This document shows positions 3,738-24,807 of a stretch of DNA of 64,000 nt, piece after piece. This stretch comes from Shouchella miscanthi (GTDB taxonomy: Bacteria > Bacillota > Bacilli > Bacillales > Bacillaceae_D). The notes under the pieces were generated by a model, which was not told the origin of the DNA, ran no database searches, and saw nothing but the letters and a program-made list of their open reading frames with translations. The stretch lies in assembly GCF_007725405.1 (NCBI RefSeq), contig NZ_CP042163.1, positions 3,720,001 through 3,784,000 on the forward strand, in the 5' to 3' direction. A program made the position numbers and the translations under genes. Within the stretch, counting starts at the first letter, position 1. Every line of letters begins with the position of its first letter.

Positions 3738-5417
3738 TTATTGTAATACCTGAAAATCTACATAGCTCCGATACTTTTGGTGTGAATTGTAAAGGGTGTG
3801 ATGGGTACCTTCACCCGTTACCTGTCCATTGTCTAAAAAGATAATTCGATCCGCGTTAATAATTGTTGATAACCTGTGAGCAATAATGACGACTATTTTA
3901 TTCTCCACATTACGATGTAAATACTTTTGTAGGATGGCTTCGCTTTCACTATCTAAGTTTGAAGTAGGCTCATCTAAATAAATGATCTCTCTTTCTTTAG
4001 AAAGGGCTCTTAGAATATTCACTCGTTGTTTTTGCCCTCCTGATAAATTAGGAGCAAACTCATCTTTCAAGGAGTCATAGTCAAAATTCATAAAATGTCG
4101 GTCAAGTAATGCTAGAAACGCATCGCTTGACTTCGTTTCATTGCCATAAAAGACATTCGTTTCAACACTTGCATCAAACAATAAGCTATCTTGCGGAATA
4201 TACCCAATCTTACTTTTATAGAATGCAGAGTGAGAAACACGTTCGCCATTGTAAAGAATCGATCCACTATCTGGCGAATAGAGACCTAAAAGAAGCTTTA
4301 AGAACGTACTTTTCCCACTGCCAGAAGGACCAACAACGGCCACTACTTCTCCATGCTTTAATTCTACATTCACATTTCGTAAAACAGGGGTGTCTTTATA
4401 GGAGAACGTAAGGTTTCTTATCTCGACAGCATTTTGTTTAGAACCTTGTGCTAATTCTCCTGTTGCCTCCGATTCGAATGAAAAAATAGAATGGATAAAA
4501 ACAGATGCACCTGAGGCTGTCCTGTACGACACCCATATACTTGAAAAAGCTCTTAATGGGCTGAATAACTGAAATAAAATTAAAAAGGCCGCTAAAAAGC
4601 CTCCGAACGTTAAGGTTCCTTGAGAAATTAATAGGCTCCCATATCCCATGACAGCGGTTAGTAGAATAATGGAAAGAATCATCACAAGTGGTTCTAGAAA
4701 AGCATAGACCTTTGCTTCTTTCATGCCCAATTTAAAAATAGAATGAAGAGTCTTTTTCCCATTGTCTACTTCTTTCTTTTCGGTTTTATATACTTTTACC
4801 ACTTCAATGTTTTCAATGATTCTTAAAAAGTAAGCAGACAATCTGGCAACATTTAATCGAAAATCGTAAGAAATGGTTTGCATTTTCTTACTAAATGGAA
4901 CAATGACGCATAAAAATAGGGCTAGAGCGATAACGATAAAGAGTACCATATGATAGGAAATCAACGAAAGAGCAATCAATGAACCGATAATTAACACGAC
5001 ATTCGTCAATAATTTCGGAACTTGTTCAGTTAGAAACATATTAATTTCTTCAATATCGCCAATTAATCTACTTACTAGTTCACCTGGTCGATTTTCGTTA
5101 AAAAACCGAAGTGGTAATGTTAAAATCTTACCCCATACTTGTAGCCTCAGTCGATAAATCATCGTTTCACAAAGCAAACTTAAGATATACGTAGATAGCC
5201 CATTCAGTAAACCTTGAATCAAAAAGAGCCCAATCAGCGCATAGAGCAATTGGCTATTCACTTCATTGCTATAGGTGACATCATCAATGAAGTTTTTAAT
5301 AATTAACGGTGTAATGACTGCAGATACAGCAAAGGCAATGGATAAAACCAATCCCACAGTAAGAATACGTTTAGGAATTTTGATCTTTCTAACAATTTGC
5401 ATCAAATCGTTATTCAT
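3738..5417 (-). CDS. ABC exporter (fused transmembrane and ATPase domains)
   Basis: This 559-residue half-transporter has six transmembrane helices in residues 15-310 and a nucleotide-binding domain with Walker A VGPSGSGKST, signature LSGGQKQR and Walker B IIYLDEPTS. It would work as a homodimer. The N-terminus goes straight into the first membrane helix (KRILTVGLVLSIAFAVSAVI), so there is no C39 peptidase domain although the precursors end their leaders in Gly-Gly. It is therefore expected to export an already cleaved product, or to depend on a protease encoded elsewhere. The start lies inside the stop region of a 13-codon mini-ORF. Confidence 0.88.
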   Translation of the reverse strand: MNNDLMQIVRKIKIPKRILTVGLVLSIAFAVSAVITPLIIKNFIDDVTYSNEVNSQLLYALIGLFLIQGLLNGLSTYILSLLCETMIYRLRLQVWGKILTLPLRFFNENRPGELVSRLIGDIEEINMFLTEQVPKLLTNVVLIIGSLIALSLISYHMVLFIVIALALFLCVIVPFSKKMQTISYDFRLNVARLSAYFLRIIENIEVVKVYKTEKKEVDNGKKTLHSIFKLGMKEAKVYAFLEPLVMILSIILLTAVMGYGSLLISQGTLTFGGFLAAFLILFQLFSPLRAFSSIWVSYRTASGASVFIHSIFSFESEATGELAQGSKQNAVEIRNLTFSYKDTPVLRNVNVELKHGEVVAVVGPSGSGKSTFLKLLLGLYSPDSGSILYNGERVSHSAFYKSKIGYIPQDSLLFDASVETNVFYGNETKSSDAFLALLDRHFMNFDYDSLKDEFAPNLSGGQKQRVNILRALSKEREIIYLDEPTSNLDSESEAILQKYLHRNVENKIVVIIAHRLSTIINADRIIFLDNGQVTGEGTHHTLYNSHQKYRSYVDFQVLQ

Positions 5418-5468: not shown

Positions 5469-6851
5469 TTAATCTAAATGATCGAAGCTTACAGGTGTTA
5501 TATCAGGAAATTTCGTTCTCAGCTCTCTCATGTTATTCAGTTCTGAAAGCTCCCTCATAAAACGTAGAATAAATTCAAAGGATGGTCCTTTTCGAAATCC
5601 CATAGCAATTTTAAACAAGCCTTTGCGCACTTTGTTATCAGGGATAATGGTCTCATAACGATGATGTCTAAAGCCAAAACTTGACCCTCTATAAAACAGT
5701 GCACCTGCTTGTTTAGACTGATTCTCTAACACACCCATTAGGTAGCCATAGTCATCCAAATCATTGTTCTCGATCTGGAAAACAACAAACGGAGACCCCT
5801 TTTCAGCAGTTGATATTTTCTTAAATAAACCACCGATACGTGTATTCTTTTTTAATTCTACGTTATGTTCAAAAACCCGATCAATATAATGGTTTGTCTT
5901 GATCTCATTGAAAATAAAAGGAGCATCAAGCACACTGGCAGACTCGAAGGATAAGGCGCTTCCGTTCAGAGTACGAACCTTTTTTATGTATTGTTTAAGC
6001 TTATAACTGTCGATAATGTCCGCGTCATCCTTTCGACAATAAATATTTACATAGCCAAAATTGCAAAACTCTAATCCAAATTGATGAAGCTTTAAACCAG
6101 ATGAACATTCCATAACAACCGTAAATGGCTGATGTTTACATTTAGCTAGAATAGCGTCTCTTGTAGTATTGTCTTGAGATAAAGTACTATCAATGATAAT
6201 GAATGTAAACTTTTTCTTAGCTTCTATCGGCCTTTCAAAACTTTGATCCGTGTCAAAGTAATTCATTTTCCAGTCATATCTCGTTGGTTCAATGTAGATG
6301 ATATCAAAAGCATTAAAATCTATTTTCCCCGTATGATCAAACGTGATAGACAAGTGTTCTCTAGCGATCACTTCTAACAACCCTTTGCTTTCAAAGTAGT
6401 CTGCAAAACAAACCATCGATAATGGATTGTTTTGACTTGGGGAATAGAATGACAATAAGCTATTGAACAGCGTACTCAATGTAGCCATCCCGCTTGAAAA
6501 AGCTAAGGCCGTATTATTCCAACATACTTGTTCATTACTCGTTTGTATCTTATCTTCTAAGGAAGTTGTCTCTATATTTCGTTCGTACGAAAAGTCATGG
6601 ACCGTTCCTCCATAAGTAGTTGGGGTTTGGAGTGGCGATCTCATAAACGTAGACGTATGTTGGATATTCTTACGAATCCATTTCATTCTAATTGTTTGAG
6701 ACAGTTTCTCTAGCTTGTGTTCAATTAAGAATGCATTGTCATTTGCGTTGATTTGGTTCTCAATAGTATGCGCATCTATCGATATGTCTAGTTGTAGATC
6801 TTCAGACATACATTTTAAAAGATCCAGTTCACTAAGTAGATGGTTTGTCAT
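5469..6851 (-). CDS. Fold-type I PLP enzyme, cystathionine synthase-like
   Basis: A 460-residue protein whose core resembles the Cys/Met-metabolism PLP family. ALAFSSGMATLSTLF (about residue 134) matches the phosphate-binding SGMAA segment, DIIYIEPTRYDW the following strand, and ECSSGLKLHQFG (about residue 248) the internal-aldimine lysine motif SxTKYxxG. The first 110 and last 50 residues are not familiar. It starts in an ATGA overlap with the upstream PLP decarboxylase-like gene, so the enzymes are probably made together. The chemistry is unknown; family members carry out beta- or gamma-elimination and replacement. A role on the peptide or on a released amino acid is inference from the operon only. 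Confidence 0.6.
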   Translation of the reverse strand: MTNHLLSELDLLKCMSEDLQLDISIDAHTIENQINANDNAFLIEHKLEKLSQTIRMKWIRKNIQHTSTFMRSPLQTPTTYGGTVHDFSYERNIETTSLEDKIQTSNEQVCWNNTALAFSSGMATLSTLFNSLLSFYSPSQNNPLSMVCFADYFESKGLLEVIAREHLSITFDHTGKIDFNAFDIIYIEPTRYDWKMNYFDTDQSFERPIEAKKKFTFIIIDSTLSQDNTTRDAILAKCKHQPFTVVMECSSGLKLHQFGLEFCNFGYVNIYCRKDDADIIDSYKLKQYIKKVRTLNGSALSFESASVLDAPFIFNEIKTNHYIDRVFEHNVELKKNTRIGGLFKKISTAEKGSPFVVFQIENNDLDDYGYLMGVLENQSKQAGALFYRGSSFGFRHHRYETIIPDNKVRKGLFKIAMGFRKGPSFEFILRFMRELSELNNMRELRTKFPDITPVSFDHLD

Positions 6852-8008
6852 GCGTACACCTGACTTTCGCCAACAGATAATTCCTTAAATTCATCGTTTA
6901 TATACAAATATTCCTTTGGGGTCGGAATACCGTGAAGGGATTTACTCATAGAAATGGTGTAGGCTCCAAATGGAAACAATACGATATAATCGTTTAATGA
7001 CAGTTTATTAGAAGCCATGTTCTCGAAATAGATATCTTTTTCATAGCACGTATTACCAGCAATGGTTTGCTGTTCCATGTCTCCACTCGAACTAGTGTAA
7101 ACAATCTTTACATTCGCTTTTGTCCATTCTATTAAATTCCAAGAAGAAGAATCCATGTTGACCACCCCATTGTTCACGGATAATACACTCGTCTTTAAAT
7201 AACCAGCCATCACGTAAACAAGCATACCAGGTTCGAATATGACTTCTTTCAGTTTCGGTAAGTACTGTTCCGTATAGGATTGTATGAGCTCAAATGTTTT
7301 ATCTATGTCTTCTTCATTTGAGAATAACCGCGTGAGACCACCGCCAAGGTTTAATGTCTGGACATCCGGAAAAAGAGAAAGAATATCTACTAAATAGTTA
7401 AGGGTGTCCTTAACCGTATTAAAATTATTTAATTCTCCAATGTGAATGTGGATGCTTATCACTTTATAGTGGAACTCTTTTAAAATCTCTTTAAGCGCTT
7501 GTTGATTTTCTGATTGACTTACATTAATCCCAAATCGGCTTTTTGATAGATAAGTCGTAGCACCGTTTGATCCAATCGGAATATTTAACCGTAAGCCAAT
7601 ATCCTTGGGCTGCCTGCTTTCATTGTACTGACATGAATAGGCATATAGTTGCTCCACGTTATCAAAATCAAACTGCACTTGGTTTTCGATCATTTCATGG
7701 ATATGCTCGATTTTTATTCCTGGAGATGTTGCACTAATGCGTGAATAACCAGCTATTGTAGCAACTTGATATTCTTCATACGAAGAGACATCTACCCCGT
7801 CAACAACCCTCGACATATACGCATTTAAACCCACATTCCGATTCGCTTTCATTGAAACGTAGAGTTTCATTTTTTTCACACTACCTAAACGACGTCTTAA
7901 GTGATGCACAACATGTGTTAATGATTCTGCATCATACACAACTGCCGGGCTCGTAATCTCGTTAGACCTATTAAACATATTTTGAGGGAGCTTAGGAAAT
8001 AGACTCAT
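6848..8008 (-). CDS. Fold-III PLP decarboxylase-like enzyme, copy B
   Basis: This 386-residue enzyme belongs to the ornithine/diaminopimelate/arginine decarboxylase superfamily. The PLP lysine is in LYVSMKANRNVG (about residue 53). SRFGI, SIHIHIGEL, NLGGGLTRLF and FEPGMLV are the cofactor-binding strands. AGNTCYEKD (about residue 319) holds the catalytic Cys and acidic pair expected from the partner subunit, and FGAYTISMSKSLHGIPTP is the C-terminal motif. It is a paralogue of the enzyme at 9185-10369 but keeps the Cys that the other lost. Both ends overlap neighbours in ATGA arrangements. The substrate is unknown; ornithine or arginine related compounds fit the arginase-like partner. Confidence 0.8.
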   Translation of the reverse strand: MSLFPKLPQNMFNRSNEITSPAVVYDAESLTHVVHHLRRRLGSVKKMKLYVSMKANRNVGLNAYMSRVVDGVDVSSYEEYQVATIAGYSRISATSPGIKIEHIHEMIENQVQFDFDNVEQLYAYSCQYNESRQPKDIGLRLNIPIGSNGATTYLSKSRFGINVSQSENQQALKEILKEFHYKVISIHIHIGELNNFNTVKDTLNYLVDILSLFPDVQTLNLGGGLTRLFSNEEDIDKTFELIQSYTEQYLPKLKEVIFEPGMLVYVMAGYLKTSVLSVNNGVVNMDSSSWNLIEWTKANVKIVYTSSSGDMEQQTIAGNTCYEKDIYFENMASNKLSLNDYIVLFPFGAYTISMSKSLHGIPTPKEYLYINDEFKELSVGESQVYA

Positions 8009-9207
8009 GATAAATCCACCTTCGTCATCATACTGATCAACGTTAGCAACAGCTCATTTACAAGTAAGGCTTCATGAACTTTATGCTCGGACGGAAGAAA
8101 TTCCACCACGTCGGCACCTATAATGTCATGTTCTCTTATACTAGTTAAGATAGCCATCAATTCTTTAGGGTGCATACCAAGCGGGACTGGGGTACCTGTT
8201 GAAGACATAAAACTAGGATCTAATACATCGACATCAAGCGTTATGTAGTAGGGCAACCCCTCTCTTAAATAGTCGCTTATATCCAGTTCACCAGAAGAAA
8301 CGACTTCAATCTTCTCTGCTTGTACATGCTCTTGATCCACTCTTTGCCTTTGACCAATTTGTAGGATATGTTCAAGATTTCTTTCATTTAAAAACCCATC
8401 CATGAAGTTCCCATGGTGAATATCTTTAAATGATACTTGTTCGGTTCCCCCGCCATCATAATGGGCATCAATATGGATCAAGCCAATTTTTTTATGCGAG
8501 AGAATCCCTTGTAAGGACGAATACGTAATCGAGTGATCTCCACCGACGATTACAGGCTTAATCTTGGCTAATGTTAGTTTCCTCACAATTTCCTCTAATT
8601 GTCTTTGCTGCCTACCGTTTCGATCAAATACGTGTCCAGAGATATCTCCACAATCAAACACCTTACTCGCTAATTGGACCCCTTCTGTATATTGTCCTTT
8701 CACTTCTACTTGAGGGAAACCATAGGGTACAATTGATCGACTGTGACGCCTCAAATATTCAGGGCCCAATCGACTGCCTGGTAAATTGGTTACATTGTGA
8801 TCAAACGGCATGCCGATAATAGCGACTGCATCCGCTATATGGCCACCAATATTAATGACCTCTTCCATTCTCATACCATTAAAATTAAAGAAACGATTCG
8901 TTGATTGGGCAATATTATTTGCCATTTGAACATCTACATCAGCTAGCACAATGAGATCGTTCTTTTCAAGCTCTTCTATAGATTCTAGTAACTCCGCTTC
9001 TTCAAGTACTTGTTGATTGGAGTTCCTATAGATCGATATAGCCTGCTCCACGTTTACCGGGAGATTGAACGAAGAAAGAAGAGTAAACATATCTAGTGGT
9101 ATGTGGTATTCTCTCCCCTTCCCCATGTTGGTAAGGATGATGTCTTGAGCACTAGTACGTATAACAGACACATTTGGATTTACTTTATACCGAGTGGAAC
9201 GGTTCAC
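8005..9207 (-). CDS. RRE-like domain fused to arginase-family enzyme (putative peptide arginase)
   Basis: Residues 1-95 look like a PqqD/RiPP-recognition winged helix (KVNPNVSVIRTSAQDIILTN, then a helical EAELLESIEELEKNDLIVL). Residues 130-400 are an arginase/agmatinase domain with every manganese ligand motif present: VGGDHS, HIDAHYDGG, LDVDVLDPSF and VEFLPSEH. Free-standing arginases are about 300 residues; the extra N-terminus is the distinctive part. Known peptide arginases such as OspR turn Arg side chains of precursor peptides into ornithine. The four precursors here all carry two conserved Arg in the core, so I infer the same reaction. The start is GTG at 9207, set by GGAGG nine bases upstream. 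It overlaps the preceding gene by 23 bp. Confidence 0.82.
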   Translation of the reverse strand: MNRSTRYKVNPNVSVIRTSAQDIILTNMGKGREYHIPLDMFTLLSSFNLPVNVEQAISIYRNSNQQVLEEAELLESIEELEKNDLIVLADVDVQMANNIAQSTNRFFNFNGMRMEEVINIGGHIADAVAIIGMPFDHNVTNLPGSRLGPEYLRRHSRSIVPYGFPQVEVKGQYTEGVQLASKVFDCGDISGHVFDRNGRQQRQLEEIVRKLTLAKIKPVIVGGDHSITYSSLQGILSHKKIGLIHIDAHYDGGGTEQVSFKDIHHGNFMDGFLNERNLEHILQIGQRQRVDQEHVQAEKIEVVSSGELDISDYLREGLPYYITLDVDVLDPSFMSSTGTPVPLGMHPKELMAILTSIREHDIIGADVVEFLPSEHKVHEALLVNELLLTLISMMTKVDLS

Positions 9208-10369
9208 CTCGTATTTCCTCCTCTAAAGAATGGATTTCTCCATCAATTAACACATATTGGTTTGGTAGATTAAGCCTATTAAATCTTCTGGCATTCGTTA
9301 AGGCATAAGCCCCAAATGCTGGAAAAAGTACCTTATCGCCTCTTTTTACTTTGGGTACTTCATATTCTTTAAAATCTGACAAAGAATCTCCTTCAAATAG
9401 CGTATTTCCCACAAAAACAACGCGCTCTACTTCATCAGAACGATTTAGAAAGATCGGATTGCTGCGTATCCAAGGGGATAAATTCCAAAATGATGTATCG
9501 CATTGCAACATCGTAACATTTCTTTTCTTATGTACTTTCTTCGAGACAATTTCTGAAATCAAATAACCATTACCAGCTAACAAAGCACCACCAGGTTCAA
9601 AAATAAACTCTAACTTTCTGCCATGAATGTTCTCCCAGTTTCGTATAAGCAGATTCATTTCTTTAAACAGTTCTCTCGTTTCTTCACGATTATGAAATAA
9701 ATAAAAAAGACCACCGCCAAGATTAATCGTTTTAATTGTATCTATTTGACTTGCAATATCTAATAAGTAATTTAGTTTAAACTGAAAAGAAGCACCGGTA
9801 GATTGCCCTGTATGAATATGAAGATTGCTAATTGTCAAATCGTATGTTTCTTTTAAACGTACTAGTTCATCTTTGTTTTCATAAAAATCAATGCCGAATC
9901 TGCTATCCAAGCCAAAGGTAGCAATTGTATCCATTTCTTCTGGGATAGGTATCGCAATCCTCAAGCCTACTTCTTTCGAGTAACCCATTTCAACAAAATC
10001 ATTTAGTTGATCCATAGAATCCAGATCCATAACGATATCGTTCTCGACAAACGTGCTCATGCTATCGCGGCTATAGTATGGACTTGTCGTCGTTATCTTT
10101 CTAAAGCCACTATCGTGAACAAGACGATATTCACCAACACTCGCAACATCGCATCCGAGACCTAGGTGAGCAAAATGATTCAACATTTCCTTATTATGTA
10201 TTGCTTTTACTGCTAGATGAAGAAAGGCATTGTCAATTAACTCAATATCCTCTTTCAGTACTCTCACTGTATGTTTTATTCCGTCTAAATCATATATCAT
10301 CGTCGGTTCCTTCAGTTGATTCACAAGCTCGAATAGCTTTCCATCAGGTTGTTTATATAAATGATCCAA
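9185..10369 (-). CDS. Fold-III PLP decarboxylase-like enzyme, copy A
   Basis: Same superfamily as the 6848-8008 protein: LAVKAIHNKEM with the PLP lysine, DSRFGIDF, NLHIHTGQS, NLGGGLFYLF, FEPGGALLAG and FGAYALTNARRFNRL are all present. The partner-subunit motif that normally reads CxxxD is VGNTLFEGD here, with Leu where catalytic Cys is expected. It may catalyse a different outcome, or form a heterodimer with copy B in which only one kind of site is active. The frame extends upstream to 10411, but the ribosome binding site GGAGGGTGAT points to a start near the TTG at 10369; this is uncertain by a few codons. It is the first enzyme gene after the precursors. Confidence 0.78.
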   Translation of the reverse strand: MDHLYKQPDGKLFELVNQLKEPTMIYDLDGIKHTVRVLKEDIELIDNAFLHLAVKAIHNKEMLNHFAHLGLGCDVASVGEYRLVHDSGFRKITTTSPYYSRDSMSTFVENDIVMDLDSMDQLNDFVEMGYSKEVGLRIAIPIPEEMDTIATFGLDSRFGIDFYENKDELVRLKETYDLTISNLHIHTGQSTGASFQFKLNYLLDIASQIDTIKTINLGGGLFYLFHNREETRELFKEMNLLIRNWENIHGRKLEFIFEPGGALLAGNGYLISEIVSKKVHKKRNVTMLQCDTSFWNLSPWIRSNPIFLNRSDEVERVVFVGNTLFEGDSLSDFKEYEVPKVKRGDKVLFPAFGAYALTNARRFNRLNLPNQYVLIDGEIHSLEEEIRGEPFHSV

Positions 10370-10428
10370 CAGTGTAATCACCCTCCATAAGCATACTGTT
10401 ACACATCGCATTCGTTCTTTTTCAAGAG

Positions 10429-10460
10429 AGAAACCTTAATAGCCATCTATTAAGGTTTCT
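10429..10460 (-). terminator. Attenuator hairpin between precursor and enzyme genes
   Basis: AGAAACCTTAATA and TATTAAGGTTTCT form a perfect 13-bp stem around a 6-nt loop. There is no good T-run after it on the minus strand, so it probably lets some transcripts through. Such hairpins between precursor and enzyme genes give an excess of precursor mRNA and protect its 3' end. Confidence 0.65.
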
Positions 10461-10472
10461 TTAATTGCTTTG

Positions 10473-10550
10473 TTATCTTGGACGTGATCCACCTAATAAT
10501 TCTAAGTCTAGATTAACGATAGGCGTTTCTTTTGATTCAATCTTAGCCAT
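10473..10550 (-). CDS. RiPP precursor peptide 4 (25 aa, core SRPR)
   Basis: ATG at 10550 encodes a peptide beginning MAKIESKETPIV, continuing NLDLELLGG and ending SRPR. It is the last of four tandem copies and the shortest. The NLDLELLGG segment has the spacing of a double-glycine leader (hydrophobic residues at -4, -7 and -12 and GG at -1/-2), which would release only Ser-Arg-Pro-Arg. It is followed at once by the attenuator hairpin and the enzyme genes. It is too short for automatic gene finders, which may be why the family has been missed. Confidence 0.85.
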   Translation of the reverse strand: MAKIESKETPIVNLDLELLGGSRPR

Positions 10551-10599
10551 TCATTACACCACCTTTATTATTAGTTGATTAAGTATGATTAAACGGATG

Positions 10600-10683
10600 T
10601 TAGTGAACTCTTGGACGCGATCCACCTAGTAATTCTAAATCTAAATTAACTACAGGCGTTTCTTTTGATTCGATTTTAGCCAT
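10600..10683 (-). CDS. RiPP precursor peptide 3 (27 aa, core SRPRVH)
   Basis: ATG at 10683 follows GGAAAGGTAGTGAGAAG. The product starts MAKIESKETPVV, continues NLDLELLGG, and ends SRPRVH, so this copy differs in the last two residues. Leader and core are otherwise the same as in the sister copies. Synonymous differences between copies with little amino-acid change indicate selection on the peptide. Confidence 0.85.
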   Translation of the reverse strand: MAKIESKETPVVNLDLELLGGSRPRVH

Positions 10684-10734
10684 TCTTCTCACTACCTTTC
10701 CAAATAAAATCCATAAGTATAAAAAAGATGACGG

Positions 10735-10815
10735 TTATCGCCTAGGACGTGATCCACCTAGCAGTTCTAAATCCAAATTAACAACAGGTGTTTCTTTTGA
10801 GTCAATTTTAGCCAT
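10735..10815 (-). CDS. RiPP precursor peptide 2 (26 aa, core SRPRR)
   Basis: ATG at 10815 follows GGAAAGGTAGTGAGAAG. The product starts MAKIDSKETPVV, continues NLDLELLGG and ends SRPRR. It is identical in protein sequence to the first copy except Thr for Ile at position 9, although several codons differ. Confidence 0.85.
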   Translation of the reverse strand: MAKIDSKETPVVNLDLELLGGSRPRR

Positions 10816-10867
10816 TCTTCTCACTACCTTTCCTAATAGATTCACTAAGTATAAAAGAAGATGGTGG

Positions 10868-10948
10868 TTAGCGCCTTGGGCGTGACCCACCTAGCAATTC
10901 TAAATCCAAATTAACAACAGGTATTTCTTTTGAGTCGATTTTAGCCAA
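10868..10948 (-). CDS. RiPP precursor peptide 1 (26 aa, core SRPRR)
   Basis: This is the promoter-proximal copy. Its start is TTG at 10948, placed 8 bases after a strong GGAGG; the ATG four bases before it is out of frame and runs into a stop after two codons. The product starts (M)AKIDSKEIPVV, continues NLDLELLGG and ends SRPRR. The TTG start may lower its output relative to the other copies. Confidence 0.83.
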   Translation of the reverse strand: MAKIDSKEIPVVNLDLELLGGSRPRR

Positions 10949-14093: not shown

Positions 14094-14549
14094 CTACTCA
14101 TTTAATTGCGCCGTTTTAGGAATAATATAAATCAATAAAATCGAAACAAGCACCGTCGCTACAGCTGCTAATATCCATGGTAGCACATTTCCATTTTCTT
14201 CTACCGGCACCACATGCCGCGCCAACACTTTCTCCTCGTTGAACAACCCGGCGCTAGCAGCTACATTTTCCTCGTGGTTCGCTTCAGCATTACTTGCAAA
14301 CAAGGTATCTTGAAGTTCCGTGTATGTTTCTTCTAGAGGCTGAGTAAATGTGAGTATTTTTTGTTCTTCAGGCACTCTAATTTCCCGCTGTTCCGCTTCT
14401 GGTTTGTATTGACGGAGCTCTAACAACACTTCCCGCTCTTTATAAACACCAGGTTCCACTCGTTCTTCTTGGGCAAAGCTTGGCATTACCGAAGACAGGA
14501 GTAGCACTGAACATACTCCTATCCCCGTAACCTTGGCTTTACATTTCAT
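14094..14549 (-). CDS. yueC: Type VII secretion protein EssA/YueC
   Basis: A 151-residue protein with an N-terminal signal-like helix (VTGIGVCSVLLLSSVMPSFAQ), a charged extracellular segment, and a C-terminal membrane helix (LPWILAAVATVLVSILLIYII). This is the EssA/YueC topology, and the gene holds its usual place at the end of the yuk operon. GAGG nine bases upstream selects the ATG at 14549 rather than the one at 14558, which has no spacing. The start overlaps the yueB stop. EssA is a membrane part of the secretion machine. Confidence 0.82.
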   Translation of the reverse strand: MKCKAKVTGIGVCSVLLLSSVMPSFAQEERVEPGVYKEREVLLELRQYKPEAEQREIRVPEEQKILTFTQPLEETYTELQDTLFASNAEANHEENVAASAGLFNEEKVLARHVVPVEENGNVLPWILAAVATVLVSILLIYIIPKTAQLNE

Positions 14550-17500
14550 AAACGTCATCCTCTTCTTTTTTGCGGTTTACGACCGCATGACGAACGATTG
14601 GAACGGCAATCGTTAGCGCTGCAATGAGCGCCAATGGAAGCATGCCTGTAAGAAATGCATTTTGCGAGCTTGCTTGAATGGAAATATAGAGTTCCGCAAT
14701 TAGATTATTCGTACTGAAATTTGGCATGGCCATATCAAGGAGCGGGCTTGTAAAGAATAGGACGCACGCAACACTAAGTAGCCATCCAACCCACGGACCA
14801 GCCATAAAGGCAACACGGATTAGGCCAGCTGTTGCCAAGATCAAGAGAACCGTAATAATGGTCCATTGTATCGATTGGCTTCCACTCATCGTGTAAATTG
14901 ATAAGCCATAAATGCTTATGACTAAACCAACAATGATTGATAACATGCTAAACAACGAAAGATTAACCAAGATTGGCACCGAACTATAGTGGTGTGTTAA
15001 AAACCCAATCAGCAAACTTGATAGTAATACAATGACAAGCACAACGATTGGTGGTGTTAGCCTTTCAGCTGGTCCCGTTCCTTGCTCTCCACTTACACCA
15101 ACAGGACTGGAAAGATGGTTATAGACATAGTCATTGTGATGGCCATCAGTCAAAGCATTGGCTAAAATCGTGTGAATGTCTTCGTAAACCAGTTCCGTTG
15201 TTTGAACGTTGTCTGACCATCTTGAGTTCAAATTATCTGATTTGGCTTGAACTTCAGTCACATTGCTATGAAGATCTTCTGTTTGAGCAATAATATCATC
15301 TTGGCGGTTGCTAAGAGATTCAACGGATGCTCCTAATTGTTGAACTTCATCTAATGACATTTGTTGATTGGAAACGACCATTTGCCCATTTAAGCCATCC
15401 ACCGGTGCTGGTTCTATAGTAATCGCTTCATAGCTTTCAGATAGATTCTCGCCAATAGTGTTACTCGCTTCCGCCATTGCCGCCACTTCTTCGAGAATGG
15501 CTTGTTGTTCTTGAGCAATTGATTGCTCTAACTCGTTCAGCACATTATTTGCATCCGCAACAAATTGAGTAAACTCTACTTCTGCTTCCTCCACGGATTG
15601 TTGGGCTTCCTCCAGCTGCGCTTGGTTGCCCATAAACGAACTGACGGATTGTCGTGCCCTATCAATAGTAGCCTGAACCTCACGGACACGATTGTCTTCA
15701 TCGACAAGTTGCTTCACTCGGTCTTGATTTAAATTACCTAGCTGACTATATGCCCAATCTAATTTGGCTAATTCTCCATAATAGGTAAGTAGTTCTTGTA
15801 CATTTGTTGACAGGATTGGACTGTCAATTAAGGAAGGCGATGCACCAATTCGGTTGAAAACGGCTTGTTCTTGCCTGCGAACTTCCTCAATAACTGGGTC
15901 AATCACTTGCGCTTCAAGCTGTTCAACATATTGTTCCAAACGTGATGCATAGTCTTCAAGGTTTTCTACATAATCAAGAAATGCCTCGGTCACTTCTCTA
16001 TGGTCCTCTATTCTCCACTGCGCTACTTTTAATGTTGGTTCCATGTTGTTAAGTAGTTCCATTGCCTTTGTCCATACCCGTTGCAGTTCATCCTGAGAAA
16101 AAGTAACAAATTCTGCACGGTACGGCGTAAAGGAAAGAGCTGTATTTAAATCTTCTTGCTCCTCTTCTTCTAATGGAAGCTCTTGTTCAGACTCTTCGTC
16201 TCTTTCCTCCTCTTCATTCCCGCCTTCGTTATTCTCTTCCTCATTTGGAGGCTCTGTTGGCTGTGAAGGGGGATCTTCATCACCGTTTCCATTATCATCA
16301 CGATCTCCTGGCGCTGGTTGCTCATTTTCATCACTGTCTCCATTATCCGGATCAGGTTCTGACGGTGATTCTGGTTCTGTTGGATCAGGTTCTGGAATGT
16401 CTATTTCTCCAGGATTTAATCTACCGACTAATTTTTCGATTTCAGCAATCGTTTCTTCTATGTCGTTTAGAAGGTCTTCATCAATCGGCTCTAGCACTTC
16501 TTCCGGCTGTTCAGGTCGAGAAGGGCTTTCCTGTGGATCCTCGTCCCGTGATAAATGGTAGCGTACATATAACGTTTGGCGGAACTGCGCTTCTGCCCGT
16601 TCTTCTTGCGTTGCATTTGCATATTGTCCGATTAGTTCAGCCTGTGCATTTGGTATGCGATCAACTGCTTCATCTTGGGCAGCATATACTTGGTTAATGT
16701 TGCGATTAAATCGATTCATATCGTCAGTAAATTTATACGAACCGATGGCCCAGTTACCGAGCAAAGAAACGACTCTATCACCATCATTGGAAAATTGTGG
16801 TGCAAAAACACTCTGACTTTCTTGTACATTTCCGCTTCCTGCTTGTAAAGCTTGTTGGAACTCATTCACTGCTTGGTTGACAAGGTCGCCATTTTGAGTG
16901 TTCGCTTGTAGCATCATCTCTGTTTGCTCATTGTGATAATTCATGTAAAGATCCATTGCATCAGTAAGTTCGTTAAATCCCTCTTGGGCTTCTTCTAGAT
17001 TCGCACGAGAGCTTTCCGATAAATTGGCTGTATCCGAAGTAGCTGAAAAATACTGATCAAGACGGCTTCGCTGCACCTCAATTTCCTCAGCTAATTCTTG
17101 TGAACTTGGCGAGTAAAATGAGTACATTTCATTTAAAAAGTCAACTTCTTTTTGCAACACGTCAGTAAAGTTTCCTCTAACTCGGTCCACTTCCTCGGAT
17201 ACATAGCGCCAATATTGTGTGCTAATTTGCTGGTTCATTTTTAATTGGGCACTCTCTAATTCTTTTTGCACCCGTTCTTGGTTCTCTGCATTTAAATTGT
17301 TATAGATTTCATAATTTACACTCGCCTGATTTGGGAGTGAATCTTGAAACGACATAATGTTCTCGGAAAAAGAAGAATCAATATAGACAATCGCGTCATA
17401 TTCTTGGTTCGCTAATCCAGCTTGAGCAGAAGCTCTACCAGCCACTACCCATTCATATTCCGAGTCACCTTGCAATGTGGATACAATATCATTACCTAAA

Positions 17501-17679
17501 ATAAGTGGTTCATTTTCCTCATATTGGTATCCGTTGTCCTCATTAACTACTACCATTTTGCCGGATGCTTTTAATTCTTCTCTCATAGGTTCTTGCCCTA
17601 TGTACTGAAAAAAGGCAAAAGGGATAGCAATGATGATTGCTACAAGCAATAACAGCTTGACGATATGTTTTTTCTGCAC
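14539..17679 (-). CDS. yueB: Type VII secretion protein EsaA/YueB
   Basis: This 1046-residue protein has an N-terminal membrane helix (IVKLLLLVAIIIAIPFAFFQYI), a very long extracellular region with coiled-coil character, and six hydrophobic helices in the last 200 residues. Around residues 440-560 is a Pro/Asp/Glu-rich linker (for example PEPDPTEPESPSEPDPDN). The GTG start at 17679 is chosen because AGGTGG lies five bases upstream; the frame itself extends into yukB. In Staphylococcus EsaA spans the envelope as part of the channel. In B. subtilis YueB is the receptor of phage SPP1, so the variable ectodomain could be phage-exposed here too. Confidence 0.9.
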   Translation of the reverse strand: MQKKHIVKLLLLVAIIIAIPFAFFQYIGQEPMREELKASGKMVVVNEDNGYQYEENEPLILGNDIVSTLQGDSEYEWVVAGRASAQAGLANQEYDAIVYIDSSFSENIMSFQDSLPNQASVNYEIYNNLNAENQERVQKELESAQLKMNQQISTQYWRYVSEEVDRVRGNFTDVLQKEVDFLNEMYSFYSPSSQELAEEIEVQRSRLDQYFSATSDTANLSESSRANLEEAQEGFNELTDAMDLYMNYHNEQTEMMLQANTQNGDLVNQAVNEFQQALQAGSGNVQESQSVFAPQFSNDGDRVVSLLGNWAIGSYKFTDDMNRFNRNINQVYAAQDEAVDRIPNAQAELIGQYANATQEERAEAQFRQTLYVRYHLSRDEDPQESPSRPEQPEEVLEPIDEDLLNDIEETIAEIEKLVGRLNPGEIDIPEPDPTEPESPSEPDPDNGDSDENEQPAPGDRDDNGNGDEDPPSQPTEPPNEEENNEGGNEEEERDEESEQELPLEEEEQEDLNTALSFTPYRAEFVTFSQDELQRVWTKAMELLNNMEPTLKVAQWRIEDHREVTEAFLDYVENLEDYASRLEQYVEQLEAQVIDPVIEEVRRQEQAVFNRIGASPSLIDSPILSTNVQELLTYYGELAKLDWAYSQLGNLNQDRVKQLVDEDNRVREVQATIDRARQSVSSFMGNQAQLEEAQQSVEEAEVEFTQFVADANNVLNELEQSIAQEQQAILEEVAAMAEASNTIGENLSESYEAITIEPAPVDGLNGQMVVSNQQMSLDEVQQLGASVESLSNRQDDIIAQTEDLHSNVTEVQAKSDNLNSRWSDNVQTTELVYEDIHTILANALTDGHHNDYVYNHLSSPVGVSGEQGTGPAERLTPPIVVLVIVLLSSLLIGFLTHHYSSVPILVNLSLFSMLSIIVGLVISIYGLSIYTMSGSQSIQWTIITVLLILATAGLIRVAFMAGPWVGWLLSVACVLFFTSPLLDMAMPNFSTNNLIAELYISIQASSQNAFLTGMLPLALIAALTIAVPIVRHAVVNRKKEEDDVYEM

Positions 17680-17707
17680 GTAAACCACCTCGCTTAAATT
17701 CCGTTGG

Positions 17708-20700
17708 TTATGGAGCTTCTGGTATTTTAATTTTTGTCTCAATTCCATTGACGACATAGTAACCAAAACCTGGGGCGATCTCCTCTTCATTTCGCGTGAA
17801 AGAAAGATTGACAAGGGTTTGGTCTGACTTTTTCATGACGATTATATAGTGACGCACCAATTTCAATTCTGCAGTCAGAGGATCGAAGCCTTTCGTGAAT
17901 TCTGCAGAGTTGCCACATACAATCATTCGAAAACCTAGATGGCTCGAATTTTTGATTAGCTTCGCTAGTTTATCTTGAATGGTCGCATCAACTGTTTGTT
18001 GGAAACGGATGAGGCTGTCGATTACTAATAACACTGGTGGAAAAGCGGTAACCGTTCCTCCATTGTTTAACGCATCCATGTAAGCTTGTTCTCGAACAGT
18101 CATTTTTTCTTCAGTCGCTGACACCCAGTCTTTGATCTGTTCTTTTTGATCTATATAGGAAATAAGCTTCTGCCCTACATAAGAAGACAACTTGCGGTCC
18201 ACGCCATCAACTAATCCAATCTCCTCTACTTCTTGTAGCAAATAGTAGTTTAATAGAACTTTGACAACGTTCGTCTTCCCTTTCCTTGGCTGCCCAACAA
18301 CTACTAAATGCGGCTCCGATTTTGATTGTAAGAATACTGGCTTAACGGTATCTTCATCAAGAGCAAAAGGAATACTGTCGCCTGGATCGCCAACGCGTGT
18401 TCTGAAAGCTTCCAACGAAAGCTGTGTAGGCAACATTGCAATTTTTTCCGGCAGCCTAGCGTCTTGGTAACGCCGTCCTAATTGGGCGATCGCCTGTCTT
18501 GTTGCTTCCATCATTTCCATGTCATTTTCACCAGCTTCTGGCAAATATAGTTGTGTAAAGGAATGGCTGTCTTTCGCTATGATGGCGCGTCCAGGTATTG
18601 GTTCGATTTCGTACTTACTCCGACCAAGCAATGTAATGACATCGTTTCGGTCATTCATAAAATGGACAATTTTCGTTCTCATCGCATTCATGAGCGGCTG
18701 ACGCAAGGCATTCGCTCTTGTAGCTGTTAAGCTTACATAAATTCCTAACGATTGCCCATCGCGAGCAAATTGAATAAATGTGGATTCCAATTGCTCATAT
18801 TCCTCTTTGATCAAATCAAAGTTGTCAATAAAGATAAAGAGAACAGGCAAAGGCTCTGTTGCTGTTTGGTTATACATCGTCAAACTATTGACTTCTTGAA
18901 CGAGGAATCGTTCGCGGCGATCGTCCATCTCTGCTTTTAGCAAGGCAATCGCTTTCTCAATTTTACGTTTTTCATCAATTTTAAAGTAATCGGCTGTATG
19001 AGGTAGCTGCCTAAACGGTAACAACGCTCCATTTCCAAAATCAAAAATGTAAAAGTGAAGCGCTTCTGGATTAAACGACTTGGCAAAAGAAAGCATTAAT
19101 GCCATTAGCGTTGTCGATTTCCCATATCCACCAGATCCAAAGACAGCAACATTACCGTCTTTTAGCCATTGATACTGAACATCGAATTGCCTTTGTGTTT
19201 CTGGCTCATCAGCAAGCGCCAGAGGAAACATACCTGCCTCTGTATCTTTTTGTACAGGGGGAAGCCATTCTTCAAGCGGTTCAAGCCATGGGCTTGACGC
19301 TTTTTGTATGCTTAAACGCTCCGTTGTTACTTTGATCTCTTTCACAACCGCTTCCATTTCCGTGATGCTCTTTACTTTTTTACTAGCAACTGTTTGGACG
19401 TTGGATATAGGTACTAGCCCTGCATCCGTAACTAAGGCAACATCTTCTTCACCTTCATGAGTTTCTCGCAAATACGGCGCACCACTCCATGCAGATTGAA
19501 ACAATTCATATAGCTCGTTATTACCGACTTGTAAATAAGCCCGCCCTGTTACAGTTAAGTTAGCCGCATCGGGGTTTTTCAAAATTTCTTTCGAATCTTG
19601 AGCGTCTTGTACTTTTAACGCGACGCGAAAACGAGCGTTGCTCCAAATTTGGTTGTCAATGATGCCACCTGGCTTTTGTGTCGCAAGAATAAGGTGGACA
19701 CCTAGGCTCCGTCCGATTCGTGCTGCACTTACGAGTTCTTGAATAAATTCAGGTTCCTCGTTTTTTAATTCCGCAAATTCATCGGATATGATGAATAGGT
19801 GAGGCATTGGTTCCATAACTTGTTTATTTTTATACAATTCCATATAGTCATCAATGTGGTTTACTACATTTTGGTCGAATAATCTCTGCCGTTTTCGTAA
19901 TTCACTTTTGATTGATGCCAACGCTCGCATACTAAAATTCTTGCTATCATTGATATTCGTAATCGTTCCGAGCAAATGAGGAATCGTTTTAAATGGCTGT
20001 GCCATTCCCCCACCTTTATAGTCAATAAGAAGAAAAGCGACTTCATGGGGATGGTAGTGAACGGCTAACGATAAAATATACGTTTGCAGAAACTCACTTT
20101 TCCCTGAACCGGTTGTTCCTGCTAGCAAACCATGGGGCCCATGAGCCTTCTCATGGATGTTTAGCTCAAGAAGTTCATCCTTCGCTTTAAATCCGACAGG
20201 CACTGCAAGTGATTCGGCGCTGTTTGTCGTTTCCCACCGGCGTTCTATTGCTAATTCTTCTGTGTGATCGACGCCAAACATTTCAAGAAAAGAAGCCATA
20301 TCCGGTATCGATCGACTCATACCTCTTTGGTGATTCAATGATGCTAGCAAGCGGGCATACCACTCATTGGTTATTGCATCGTGCGAATCAAAGGTAAAGC
20401 GTTTATGTTCCGCTTTCCGTTCTCGAATGACAATTTCGCCTTCCTTTTGATTGACGGCCTTAATGATTGTGTGAACATATTCAGTTAAATTTTCTTGTGC
20501 ATCCGTGAGAAAAATAACCGACATCCCTAGAAGCTTGTCCGGTCCCTCTAAATATTCCATGATTGCATGGTCACTAATCAAGCTGCGATTGGCGACTAAA
20601 AAAACGAAATGAGGCATGAAACGCTTTGGTTTGCCTTGGCTTTGCTCCAACTCCCGTTCTCGTACCATTTCATAAATGGATGTCAACAGTTGGTCCCGTG

Positions 20701-22132
20701 TCCGTTCATTGTAGATGAATCCCTTTGCATACATATGCGGCAATTGAAAATGAGGGAGCCATTTCATCCATTCCCAACTTGCATACTGATCTTCGTTGAA
20801 AACAGCAACGAAACGAAGATCATGGTAGCTTTGAAAAAAAGTAAGTTGCCCGACCATTTGAGCGACTTCCCGTTGGATTGTCTTCAGTTGGCCGACATAG
20901 CCAATAGAACCGCTCGCTAAGCTGAGGCTAAGGGGCGCATCATGAATATAGGAATAATGCTCTTTTAACGTTTCGCCTTCTTCTAGCAGCTCGTCACGAT
21001 CTCGATTCGCTAAATCGCCACCTGGATCACCAATTTGAAAACTACTTGGGATGGACGATTTTCCAACACGGACATACAAATAATCATCGTCACCGACCGT
21101 TTTCTCCCAGATACGACGATTTAAGTTAGCTGCCATGTATTTACTTTCCTCAAAAGATGGAAAATGATAGTCGAGTACATGCCGTTGCTTATCAGCTATT
21201 TCTTGAAGTTCGACCCGTTTCTCTTTCAAGTAGCGAGTATAAACACGTTGACGCTTTTCTTCTTTTTGTTTACGGATTTTCCGTTCTCGAAAATAATTGA
21301 CCGTCGAAGTAATGAGCGTTACGGTGAACATTGTGACCGAAATAATGATAAAAATCCCCCGGGGAATGAGCAAAGCAACGATTCCCATTACAATGAGCAT
21401 CGCTAGTGGTGGCAATACGATGAGCCAGAGGGCTCGATGGTTATCGTCCAACTCCTGACCCGGAATGGAGAAATTCACTTTTTCTTTTGGTTCTTCATAA
21501 ATAATTCGCGGCGTTCGACGATACTCAGGGTACTTCTTTTTACTTTCGGAAGTAGGAACGGCTATGGGAGAGAGTCTCGTTTGTATAGGCTCCGTTGATT
21601 CAATCGTCAATAAATCGCTTTCCTTAATAACAAACATTGTATAGCCAAGTAATACGATATCTCCATTTTTTACTGGTTGCTTCTTTGTTAGAATTTCTCC
21701 ATTCATAAACACACGGGCATGCTCTTCTGGATACACATACCAACAGTCGTCTTGCTTAATTAATGCACATGACGAAGTAGGACTTTCCTTCGGCAACACG
21801 ATGTCAGCTGAACCCTCGTGCCCGATCGAAAGGAATGTTTCTTTCCCTATGTAATACACCCATTCGCTTATGGGTTCGCTTTCATACACGAATGTGAAAA
21901 GAACGTTATCTTCTTTATATTGAAAGGTCTCACCGGCAGCTAGAATATGCTCACCTATACCTTCACTATCAAGTACACATTGCTTCTGGTCATGAGCGAT
22001 TTTAGCGATAATCTTAGCTCGGAGAGGCGGAACGAGTAAGTCGACGTCCTCGCTTGAGCCTAACAAACGCTCTGTTTGGCTTAATTCAAGCTGCTGCACA
22101 TACTTATCATAAAATACCCATAATCGATCCAT
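17708..22132 (-). CDS. yukB: Type VII secretion ATPase EssC/YukB
   Basis: The 1474-residue motor of the secretion system. The N-terminal 200 residues hold FHA-like domains (SIGHEGSADIVLPKES is the FHA core), two membrane helices lie near residues 235-280, and three FtsK/SpoIIIE ATPase domains follow. Their Walker A motifs are GTTGSGKS (about 674), FGSGGYGKST (about 1004) and VGQPRKGKTN (about 1284). The first domain keeps LLIDYKGGG and is the main ATPase in homologues; the others bind substrates and regulate. Length and domain order are those of Bacillus YukB, so the gene is intact. Confidence 0.95.
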   Translation of the reverse strand: MDRLWVFYDKYVQQLELSQTERLLGSSEDVDLLVPPLRAKIIAKIAHDQKQCVLDSEGIGEHILAAGETFQYKEDNVLFTFVYESEPISEWVYYIGKETFLSIGHEGSADIVLPKESPTSSCALIKQDDCWYVYPEEHARVFMNGEILTKKQPVKNGDIVLLGYTMFVIKESDLLTIESTEPIQTRLSPIAVPTSESKKKYPEYRRTPRIIYEEPKEKVNFSIPGQELDDNHRALWLIVLPPLAMLIVMGIVALLIPRGIFIIISVTMFTVTLITSTVNYFRERKIRKQKEEKRQRVYTRYLKEKRVELQEIADKQRHVLDYHFPSFEESKYMAANLNRRIWEKTVGDDDYLYVRVGKSSIPSSFQIGDPGGDLANRDRDELLEEGETLKEHYSYIHDAPLSLSLASGSIGYVGQLKTIQREVAQMVGQLTFFQSYHDLRFVAVFNEDQYASWEWMKWLPHFQLPHMYAKGFIYNERTRDQLLTSIYEMVRERELEQSQGKPKRFMPHFVFLVANRSLISDHAIMEYLEGPDKLLGMSVIFLTDAQENLTEYVHTIIKAVNQKEGEIVIRERKAEHKRFTFDSHDAITNEWYARLLASLNHQRGMSRSIPDMASFLEMFGVDHTEELAIERRWETTNSAESLAVPVGFKAKDELLELNIHEKAHGPHGLLAGTTGSGKSEFLQTYILSLAVHYHPHEVAFLLIDYKGGGMAQPFKTIPHLLGTITNINDSKNFSMRALASIKSELRKRQRLFDQNVVNHIDDYMELYKNKQVMEPMPHLFIISDEFAELKNEEPEFIQELVSAARIGRSLGVHLILATQKPGGIIDNQIWSNARFRVALKVQDAQDSKEILKNPDAANLTVTGRAYLQVGNNELYELFQSAWSGAPYLRETHEGEEDVALVTDAGLVPISNVQTVASKKVKSITEMEAVVKEIKVTTERLSIQKASSPWLEPLEEWLPPVQKDTEAGMFPLALADEPETQRQFDVQYQWLKDGNVAVFGSGGYGKSTTLMALMLSFAKSFNPEALHFYIFDFGNGALLPFRQLPHTADYFKIDEKRKIEKAIALLKAEMDDRRERFLVQEVNSLTMYNQTATEPLPVLFIFIDNFDLIKEEYEQLESTFIQFARDGQSLGIYVSLTATRANALRQPLMNAMRTKIVHFMNDRNDVITLLGRSKYEIEPIPGRAIIAKDSHSFTQLYLPEAGENDMEMMEATRQAIAQLGRRYQDARLPEKIAMLPTQLSLEAFRTRVGDPGDSIPFALDEDTVKPVFLQSKSEPHLVVVGQPRKGKTNVVKVLLNYYLLQEVEEIGLVDGVDRKLSSYVGQKLISYIDQKEQIKDWVSATEEKMTVREQAYMDALNNGGTVTAFPPVLLVIDSLIRFQQTVDATIQDKLAKLIKNSSHLGFRMIVCGNSAEFTKGFDPLTAELKLVRHYIIVMKKSDQTLVNLSFTRNEEEIAPGFGYYVVNGIETKIKIPEAP

Positions 22133-22155
22133 TGTCCCACCTCCTACGTGCGCCC

Positions 22156-23460: not shown

Positions 23461-23486
23461 TCCATGTCCGATCCCTTCAACCAGTG

Positions 23487-23726
23487 CTATAAAATCTCTA
23501 TGCGGTCTCCATTTGTTACACCACGTTCAGCGAGTACTTGGCTACCGTAGACATGAGTTTCTTTGTTTTGAACACGGATCCAACTCCCATCACGCTGAGG
23601 AACTTCAAGCTCCTCGATGCTCCAAATAAGATCAACGACTTTTTTTGCCGTATATTGATCAGATAGCCGCAAGTCAAACCGTTTTCCTGAATACCGTTTC
23701 ATGTCAACCGTTACAGTGATGTACAT
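23487..23726 (-). CDS. yukD: Ubiquitin-like protein YukD/EsaB
   Basis: The 79-residue product (MYITVTVDMKRYSGKRFDLR at the start, GVTNGDRIEIL at the end) has the length and beta-grasp pattern of YukD/EsaB. The frame extends upstream, but GGGTGG six bases before the ATG at 23726 fixes the start. EsaB is a small cytoplasmic regulator of type VII secretion. A hairpin lies between it and yukE. Confidence 0.88.
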   Translation of the reverse strand: MYITVTVDMKRYSGKRFDLRLSDQYTAKKVVDLIWSIEELEVPQRDGSWIRVQNKETHVYGSQVLAERGVTNGDRIEIL

Positions 23727-23750
23727 CAAATGCCACCCTTTCATAAGGAA

Positions 23751-23778
23751 GGACGCAATTGTAAAAAAATTGCGCCCA
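23751..23778 (-). terminator. Attenuator hairpin between yukE and yukD
   Basis: GGGCGCAATT and AATTGCGTCC pair around a T-rich loop on the minus strand. Placed between the abundant substrate gene and the machine genes, it would let yukE be expressed at a higher level. Confidence 0.5.
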
Positions 23779-23801
23779 CAGTTGTTTCTATTCCTGACCA
23801 A

Positions 23802-24095
23802 TTAACCGCGAATGTTGCCTGCAATTTGTTGATCTGTTTCTTCAAGGGTCCGTCCACTGTTGCGTAGCTGCTCAGATACTTCGCCAAGCAAATCGCCCAT
23901 ACGGACAAAGGATGGCTTTAATTCGTCATACTGTTGAACAAACGCTTCAGAAGCTTGACCATCCCACATACCTTGTAGCTGATCTCTGAAACCATCTAAC
24001 CTGCTTATGAGGTCATGCACCTCTCCACTTGAGCGATTATAGTCATCAGCTTTTTGGTAAAGTTCTTCAGGTGTAACACGAATCAATCCAGACAT
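23802..24095 (-). CDS. yukE: WXG100 protein YukE/EsxA
   Basis: The 97-residue helical-hairpin protein has the WXG turn as MWDGQAS near residue 44, and a C-terminal tail SGRTLEETDQQIAGNIRG in which the YxxxD/E export signal is replaced by a polar sequence. The start is the ATG at 24095, preceded by AAAAGGAGGAGTTAAT. WXG100 proteins are secreted as dimers and are needed for the system to work. It is the first gene of the secretion operon. Confidence 0.93.
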   Translation of the reverse strand: MSGLIRVTPEELYQKADDYNRSSGEVHDLISRLDGFRDQLQGMWDGQASEAFVQQYDELKPSFVRMGDLLGEVSEQLRNSGRTLEETDQQIAGNIRG

Positions 24096-24793: not shown

Positions 24794-24807
24794 CGATGAC
24801 ACTTCCC

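Follow-up and report, generated by a model that had tools for sequence, protein, structure and literature searches.

We analysed a 64,000-nt stretch of Shouchella miscanthi DNA (contig NZ_CP042163.1, positions 3,720,001 to 3,784,000; hereafter the window), in which four tandem open reading frames (ORFs) of 25–27 codons, spanning positions 10473–10948 of the minus strand, precede the genes for two homologues of pyridoxal 5'-phosphate (PLP)-dependent decarboxylases (DC1 and DC2), an arginase-family enzyme and a divergent PLP enzyme that we call E (Table 1). The DC1, arginase, DC2 and E genes follow one another in that order with overlapping ends. An earlier note on this DNA had described four near-identical peptide genes at this place, each with a ribosome binding site and a Gly-Gly leader before the residues SRPR, and with codons that differ while the protein is conserved. 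All four ORFs are present, and a Shine-Dalgarno-like stretch precedes each of them (AAAGGAGGTGAAATGA-TTG; GGAAAGGTAGTGAGAAGA-ATG, twice; AAAGGTGGTGTAATGA-ATG), the first copy opening with TTG rather than ATG. The consensus is MAKI[DE]SKE[TI]P[VI]VNLDLELLGG-SRPR, followed by R in the first two copies, by VH in the third and by nothing in the fourth. Third codon positions vary much between the copies and the protein hardly varies: pooled over the six pairs of window copies, synonymous differences fall at 51 of 108 sites and non-synonymous differences at 11 of 324, and the resulting ratio (pN/pS = 0.072) indicates that the protein is under strong purifying selection. This conservation pattern is not a product of chance, and the ORFs almost certainly form a real precursor family.

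Relatives beyond the genus were traced through E, the last PLP enzyme of the operon. The arginase-type cluster occurs at nine loci in eight species: the window, a second genome of the same species (G030), S. oshimensis, plasmid pWHA07 of Mammaliicoccus sciuri (L006), and genomes G217, G478, G873, G1621 and G1609 (L018, L019, L028, L044 and L045, respectively). Profiles detected arginase, DC1, DC2 and E together at 9/9 of these loci, and a precursor is present at each; the gene table for L006, known to be incomplete, lists no precursor gene there. The order precursor-DC1-arginase-DC2-E is common to every locus except G478, which has DC1-arginase-E-DC2. Within the genus, arginase and precursor occur together in 3 of 13 genomes, and the other 10 have neither. 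The earlier note had proposed a family of precursors to a ribosomally synthesized and post-translationally modified peptide (RiPP) beside an arginase/PLP operon, to be abandoned if relatives keeping the enzymes did not conserve the ORFs; conservation at all nine loci bears the proposal out.

The precursor copies number 18 (four each in the window and G030, three in S. oshimensis, two in G1609, one of them cut by the contig end, and one at each other locus), all of which contain SR and 17 of which contain SRPR. A scan of the window and 11 loci found the motif [LM]GGSR 15 times, every time inside a precursor ORF. Outside Shouchella the precursors end in LDLDLMGG-SRPR-LK (L006), LDLTLLGG-SRPR-LS (L018), LDLTILGG-SRPR-HTAN (L028), LDLTILGG-SRPR-VN (L044), LDLTILGG-SRPR-GDLQQF (L045) and LDLSVLGG-SRIDKDRL (L019), the last with both Arg and Lys in its core. 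Because the tails vary freely, the mature peptide probably corresponds to SRPR (or SR...). The first Arg is present in 18/18 copies and the second is absent from L019, so that the two are not both invariant, as had been claimed; nor is the claim supported that the core is one of the smallest known, since pantocin A, in the available part of PMC12250964, uses two Glu of a 30-residue precursor.

A reading of the window ORFs as RiPP precursors, with a leader motif [IVL]DLxxLGG, a core Ser-Arg-Pro-Arg and a short removable tail, is well supported by these sequence features, and the peptides are very likely the substrate of the operon enzymes. The leader is not of the canonical double-glycine type that had been suggested: the expected hydrophobic pattern at -4, -7 and -12 from the core holds at -4, while the window copies have Asp at -7 and Pro at -12. 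Those residues, together with the exporters of the window and L019, both of which lack a C39 domain, rule out a double-glycine peptide processed by an exporter of the C39 kind.

We now turn to the enzymes. In the arginase-family protein the PF00491 match starts at residue 127, and the motifs GGDHS, DAHxD and DxDxxDP are invariant in 5/5 aligned arginases; four relatives are 30–34% identical to the window enzyme over the aligned proteins. PF12640, the peptide arginase family, was ruled out as the family of this enzyme, since all five members tested match PF00491 and just one reaches PF12640, at E 0.11. A structural model (mean predicted local distance difference test, pLDDT, 69) places strands at residues 7–37 of the N-terminal extension, followed by helices at 38–45, 53–63 and 70–82, which we take to be the topology of a RiPP recognition element (RRE). 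Conversion of Arg to ornithine (Orn) on the peptide by this enzyme is, in our judgement, fairly likely.

DC1 and DC2 are proteins of the LysA/ornithine decarboxylase (ODC) fold and match diaminopimelate decarboxylase, carboxynorspermidine decarboxylase, BtrK and ODC, several of which act on the amino-acid end of larger molecules. In an alignment of 19 proteins of this kind, DC2 has the PLP Lys and the catalytic Cys in 7/7 arginase-type loci, and DC1 retains the PLP Lys with Leu at the Cys position in 8/8; two DC2 sequences (S. oshimensis and G030) and one DC1 (G030) outside the alignment agree by motif, bringing the counts for Cys in DC2 and for Leu in DC1 to 9/9 each. The true start of DC1 may be a TTG near 10369 behind GGAGGGTGAT.

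All 11 aligned E proteins keep an arm Tyr, an arm Arg, the SGM motif, an Asp and the PLP Lys, and have a basic residue, Lys or Arg, at the carboxylate position; the alignment left out the E of S. oshimensis, of G030 and of L046 (frameshifted). By analogy with the Cys/Met PLP family, these residues presumably serve as active-site arm, PLP site and substrate-carboxylate binding site; since the PLP-site and carboxylate-binding residues are kept, E most likely binds a free amino acid. Its profile and fold matches are methionine gamma-lyase and cystathionine enzymes, the fold matches with a low template-modelling (TM) score. An arginine-cyclase PLP enzyme, as described in the available part of PMC10367076, was dropped as a model for E because an internal core Arg offers no free alpha-amine. 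With three PLP-enzyme homologues beside the arginase, plain ornithine (-42 Da), the mass shift that the earlier note proposed to look for, is probably not the final product.

Table 1. Predicted features of the Shouchella miscanthi cluster, with positions counted from the first nucleotide of the window
Feature	Coordinates	Strand	Remarks
Precursor gene 1	10868..10948	-	MAKIDSKEIPVVNLDLELLGG-SRPR-R, 26 aa, TTG start, Shine-Dalgarno AAAGGAGG
Precursor gene 2	10735..10815	-	MAKIDSKETPVVNLDLELLGG-SRPR-R, 26 aa
Precursor gene 3	10600..10683	-	MAKIESKETPVVNLDLELLGG-SRPR-VH, 27 aa
Precursor gene 4	10473..10550	-	MAKIESKETPIVNLDLELLGG-SRPR, 25 aa, no tail
Hairpin between last precursor and DC1	10427..10462	.	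14-bp stem, or 16 pairs in a second analysis
DC1, alanine-racemase-fold PLP decarboxylase homologue	9185..10411	-	PF02784 E 8e-21; PLP Lys kept, catalytic Cys replaced by Leu
Arginase-family ureohydrolase	8005..9207	-	PF00491 E 2.5e-53; N-terminal extension of ~110 aa; metal-ligand motifs kept
DC2, alanine-racemase-fold PLP decarboxylase	6848..8008	-	PF02784 E 2.7e-20; catalytic Lys and Cys
E, divergent Cys/Met-metabolism PLP enzyme (cystathionine-gamma-synthase / methionine-gamma-lyase related)	5469..6851	-	Proposed 3-amino-3-carboxypropyl transferase
ABC exporter	3738..5417	-	Membrane and ATPase domains (ABC_membrane, ABC_tran), no C39 peptidase
GNAT acetyltransferase, 294 aa	2818..3702	-	Pfam match on C-terminal half alone; proposed self-protection

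E also occurs apart from the arginase. Its 17 loci comprise the nine arginase-type clusters, three clusters with a major facilitator superfamily (MFS) gene and no arginase (L020, L046 and L047), two ThiF-type clusters on plasmids of Lactococcus lactis (L009) and Enterococcus faecalis (L010), and three fragments (L029, L048 and L021, the second locus of the S. miscanthi genome itself). A decarboxylase gene lies in the cluster at 14/14 loci with a whole or frameshifted E and at 0/3 with an E fragment; that of L009 is broken, in two pieces. Two decarboxylases per locus are found in the arginase-type loci alone. The small ORFs of the MFS-type clusters share the C-terminus DKV[YC] (...VVDKVY in L020, ...LVDKVY in L047, ...IPDKVC in L046), which supplies a core Lys, and 3/3 contain the leader motif [ILV]DLxx[LIMV], derived from the arginase-type leaders, whereas the fractions of shuffled versions containing it are 0.026, 0.041 and 0.031 for the three peptides. 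In the arginase-type and MFS-type clusters an Arg core is accompanied by an arginase, and the conserved core holds a Lys where the arginase is missing (the G478 core has both residues); this is our main argument that the cassette of E and a decarboxylase works on a side-chain amine.

Several further genes were noted in these clusters. A flavoprotein gene of PF02441, the family that includes EpiD-type C-terminal Cys decarboxylases, is oriented divergently at L046:11592-12203 beside the precursor ending in Cys (DKVC), and an oxidoreductase of the flavin adenine dinucleotide/pyridine-nucleotide type is found in the Lys-core clusters with Tyr-ending precursors (L020:6726-7673 and L047:742-1728). 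Two proteins of the Enterococcus ThiF-type cluster (L010:5489-6667 and 9239-10855) have no Pfam match at 0.001. The decayed second locus of S. miscanthi (L021:9327-11413; G000:C1 ~1982300-1984400) holds a C-terminal fragment of an E relative and an MFS-like gene, with neither a decarboxylase nor an arginase.

E is rare. It was found in 4/397 genomes of an order-wide sample, 3/398 of a class-wide sample and 1/398 of a phylum-wide sample (S. miscanthi alone), and in 2/108, 1/5, 2/36, 1/295 and 5/200 genomes of further samples, with E-value limits of 1e-12 to 1e-15 and overlap between samples. Plasmid records gave three matches, to which two further E queries added none. Neither the viral collection nor the phage records yielded a match to E; the arginase matched eight loci of the viral collection at 25–29% identity, where a profile check found no E and no decarboxylase of this kind. 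A scan of genome contigs with one sequence returned S. oshimensis and an unrelated Paraferrimonas arginase alone, and the nearest named match is S. oshimensis DSM 18940. The patchy and partly plasmid-borne occurrence of E suggests horizontal transfer.

Exporter genes and a putative self-protection gene accompany the enzymes. The window and L019 each have a one-piece ABC exporter; in L006, L018, L028, L044 and L045 an ATPase is paired with a separate membrane protein (which has an ABC-2 match below the cut-off in L006 and none in L018), and L010, L020, L046 and L047 have an MFS protein. Because the exporter type varies between loci, the exported species would be a small finished molecule whose leader has been removed in the cytoplasm, and cleavage before export appears the more likely course. 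Pfam recognises a GNAT acetyltransferase in the window and in 5/6 other arginase-type loci checked (L006, L018, L028, L045 and L019); whether it protects the producer is, by our estimate, an evenly balanced question. After the GNAT gene the window contains two ABC ATPases, one of them fused to LytTR (587-2606), not seen in the clusters outside Shouchella, and on the other side lies a type VII secretion-like operon (14539-24811) whose members we take to include an EssC-like protein (17708-22132) and proteins of WXG100 size.

Predicted stems lie around the precursors. The window hairpin was equalled by 0 of 60 shuffles and is terminator-like on the plus strand alone in our scan; it is possibly an attenuating or mRNA-end hairpin that holds precursor mRNA above enzyme mRNA. 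In L018, L028, L044 and L006 a long-range inverted repeat of 15, 25, 20 and 14 bp, respectively, encloses the precursor, with a loop of ~130–240 nt and its right arm directly before DC1; the arms differ in sequence between the loci and keep their complementarity, and 0, 0, 0 and 1 of 100 shuffles match their scores. S. oshimensis and G478 (3/100 shuffles) have a local hairpin, as in the window, in place of the long-range repeat, and in G1609, whose contig ends there, neither stem was found. The repeat is possibly an mRNA end-protecting or attenuating stem. An Rfam search of four loci gave nothing at the gathering score. Regulators of HTH/TPR-like type, assigned by eye, adjoin the precursor in L028:14684-15916 and L019:5942-7234, where peptide-responsive control is possible.

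From the precursors, the operon, their conservation and the intact active-site motifs, all read from sequence, we infer the following scheme. The leader would be bound, the probable binding site being the additional N-terminal domain of the arginase, and this enzyme would then hydrolyse the core Arg to Orn and so yield a free side-chain amine. E would form a PLP-bound vinylglycine from an activated homoserine (O-acyl-homoserine or S-adenosylmethionine, SAM), and addition of the Orn amine would give N-delta-(3-amino-3-carboxypropyl)-Orn. Decarboxylation by DC2, with or beside the Cys-less DC1, would produce N-delta-(3-aminopropyl)-Orn, a spermidine-like side chain, at a net mass change of +15.04 Da per Arg. 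Peptidases encoded outside the cluster would remove leader and tail, the small polycation would be exported, and acetylation of the product by the GNAT protein would protect the producer. E and one decarboxylase would then constitute a portable cassette that also serves cores already bearing an amine (Lys), which would explain why the arginase is confined to Arg-core clusters. A cystathionine-gamma-synthase-like enzyme and an ODC-like decarboxylase, LolC and LolD, are likewise paired in loline biosynthesis, a fungal small-molecule pathway acting on proline, a comparison we offer provisionally.

Parts of this scheme have counterparts in known systems, as far as the available portions of the cited papers describe them. 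With the peptide arginases OspR, FlmR and OhkR of RiPPs (PF12640; PMC12703449) the cluster shares an arginase beside small precursors with a conserved core Arg, and probably the conversion of Arg to Orn, whereas the window enzyme belongs to PF00491, has an N-terminal extension, is accompanied by three PLP-enzyme homologues and faces another type of precursor. KgrD of the enteropeptin pathway is, like it, a PF00491 enzyme, and acts on a RiPP as proposed here, but is described as requiring a Cys-derived thiomorpholine (PMC12703449); the arginase-type precursors lack Cys, and the eight operon proteins scanned include no radical SAM enzyme. Microcin C, whose synthesis involves a ThiF enzyme, acquires its aminopropyl group through 3-amino-3-carboxypropyl transfer and PLP decarboxylation and has GNAT immunity (PMC12250964, PMC10491745), so that MccB, MccD and MccE parallel the proposed logic, and relatives of E and its decarboxylase lie beside ThiF in L009 and L010. 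Unlike microcin C, the window operon has neither a ThiF nor an MccD-type SAM enzyme among those eight proteins, the transfer is assigned to a PLP enzyme, and the proposed acceptor is an Orn amine. Mur24 of muraymycin biosynthesis uses PLP to move the 3-amino-3-carboxypropyl group of SAM onto an amine, and there, too, the group ends as aminopropyl (PMC10491745); Mur24, however, resembles 1-aminocyclopropane-1-carboxylate synthases and acts on a nucleoside antibiotic rather than a ribosomal peptide (PMC10491745).

Judged from the gene content and motifs, a ribosomal polyamine peptide made by ornithine formation and aminopropylation would be the best explanation of the whole, and we give it an even chance of being right; for the aminopropylation by E and a decarboxylase in itself, the predicted chemistry leaves the prospects finely poised. 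A number of observations weigh against this explanation. The Cys-less DC1 has no obvious task in the scheme, and in the decarboxylase of the E. faecalis ThiF-type cluster Ser aligns with the catalytic Cys, next to another Cys. Against its nearest Pfam family E scores 17.2 bits where the cut-off is 27, and the structural model of E is of moderate quality (mean pLDDT 70; TM ~0.3 to the best matches). The arginase fold matches are topped by guanidinopropionase and agmatinase, which are small-molecule enzymes; its N-terminal domain is short and divergent in G478 and gave no PqqD or RRE match in Pfam and PDB sequence searches, so that the RRE is left as topology alone, and a PqqD search of the S. 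miscanthi genome gave no match. The G478 core holds both Arg and Lys and does not separate the acceptor types. The ThiF-type precursors (ending in ERT and VRT) have no core Lys and no leader motif; the acceptor there must therefore be something else, and by analogy it may be an adenylated C-terminus as in microcin C, outside the amine rule. No dedicated peptidase gene was seen in the arginase-type clusters, and no recognised GNAT gene adjoins the permease of L044.

If DC1 is taken as the clue, the core might carry ornithines alone, with E and the decarboxylases modifying the peptide, or a small partner, in some other way, for example through an aldehyde made by DC1 that closes a ring. Leu replaces the protonating Cys of DC1 in 9/9 loci, with the PLP Lys retained in the eight aligned, loss of this Cys from ODC shifts the reaction towards decarboxylation-dependent transamination, and the restriction of paired decarboxylases to arginase-type loci also fits. 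Against this, PLP decarboxylases need a free alpha-amine and the residue's own carboxylate, which a backbone-bound residue lacks unless E first adds an amino acid, and E with a decarboxylase occurs without an arginase too; we consider this alternative unlikely, while giving it some weight. The closeness of the PF00491 enzyme to agmatinase and guanidinopropionase in family and fold, and carboxynorspermidine decarboxylase among the decarboxylase matches, would suit a free polyamine pathway, in which DC1 acts as an arginine decarboxylase and the PF00491 enzyme as an agmatinase, a spermidine analogue arises through E and DC2, and the peptide serves as a regulator or is conjugated later. That we think improbable: the genome has two arginase-like genes besides that of the cluster (32% identity to it), the cluster arginase has its N-terminal extension, SR is kept in every precursor, clusters without the arginase contain a single decarboxylase, those of the MFS type also have a Lys core, and no polyamine-peptide ligase was seen in the window operon.

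The small ORFs might also be signalling or regulatory leader peptides rather than enzyme substrates, given how short they are, the regulators adjoining two loci and the long-range inverted repeats around the gene in four. This is very improbable in our estimation, since the peptides have a GG-like leader end with a basic core at the C-terminus, are encoded by three to four tandem genes in each of three Shouchella genomes and by two in G1609, and switch type with the enzyme set, from an SR core with the arginase to a DKV core without it.

The aminopropylation reading can be stated more broadly, and there we lean slightly against it: E and its partner may form an undescribed PLP-only aminopropylation cassette, a cystathionine-gamma-synthase-like transferase with a LysA-fold decarboxylase, for at least three kinds of ribosomal peptide (arginase-made Orn, Lys and ThiF-activated), the arginase-type product being a four-residue polyamine peptide and the Cys-less decarboxylase possibly forming a mixed dimer or an aldehyde. 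In the open-licence PMC literature, covered by titles and the starts of abstracts, no published description of such a cluster was recognised. The Cys-to-Leu change of DC1, kept at 9/9 loci, is a small puzzle for PLP enzymology, and the pairing of Arg-core clusters that have an arginase with Lys-core clusters that do not is a natural comparison that makes the acceptor hypothesis testable. If true, the aminopropylation reading would provide a two-enzyme tool for aminopropyl alkylation of Lys or Orn side chains, and it would mean that polyamine side chains on ribosomal peptides let bacteria encode the synthesis of strongly cationic small molecules in their genes.
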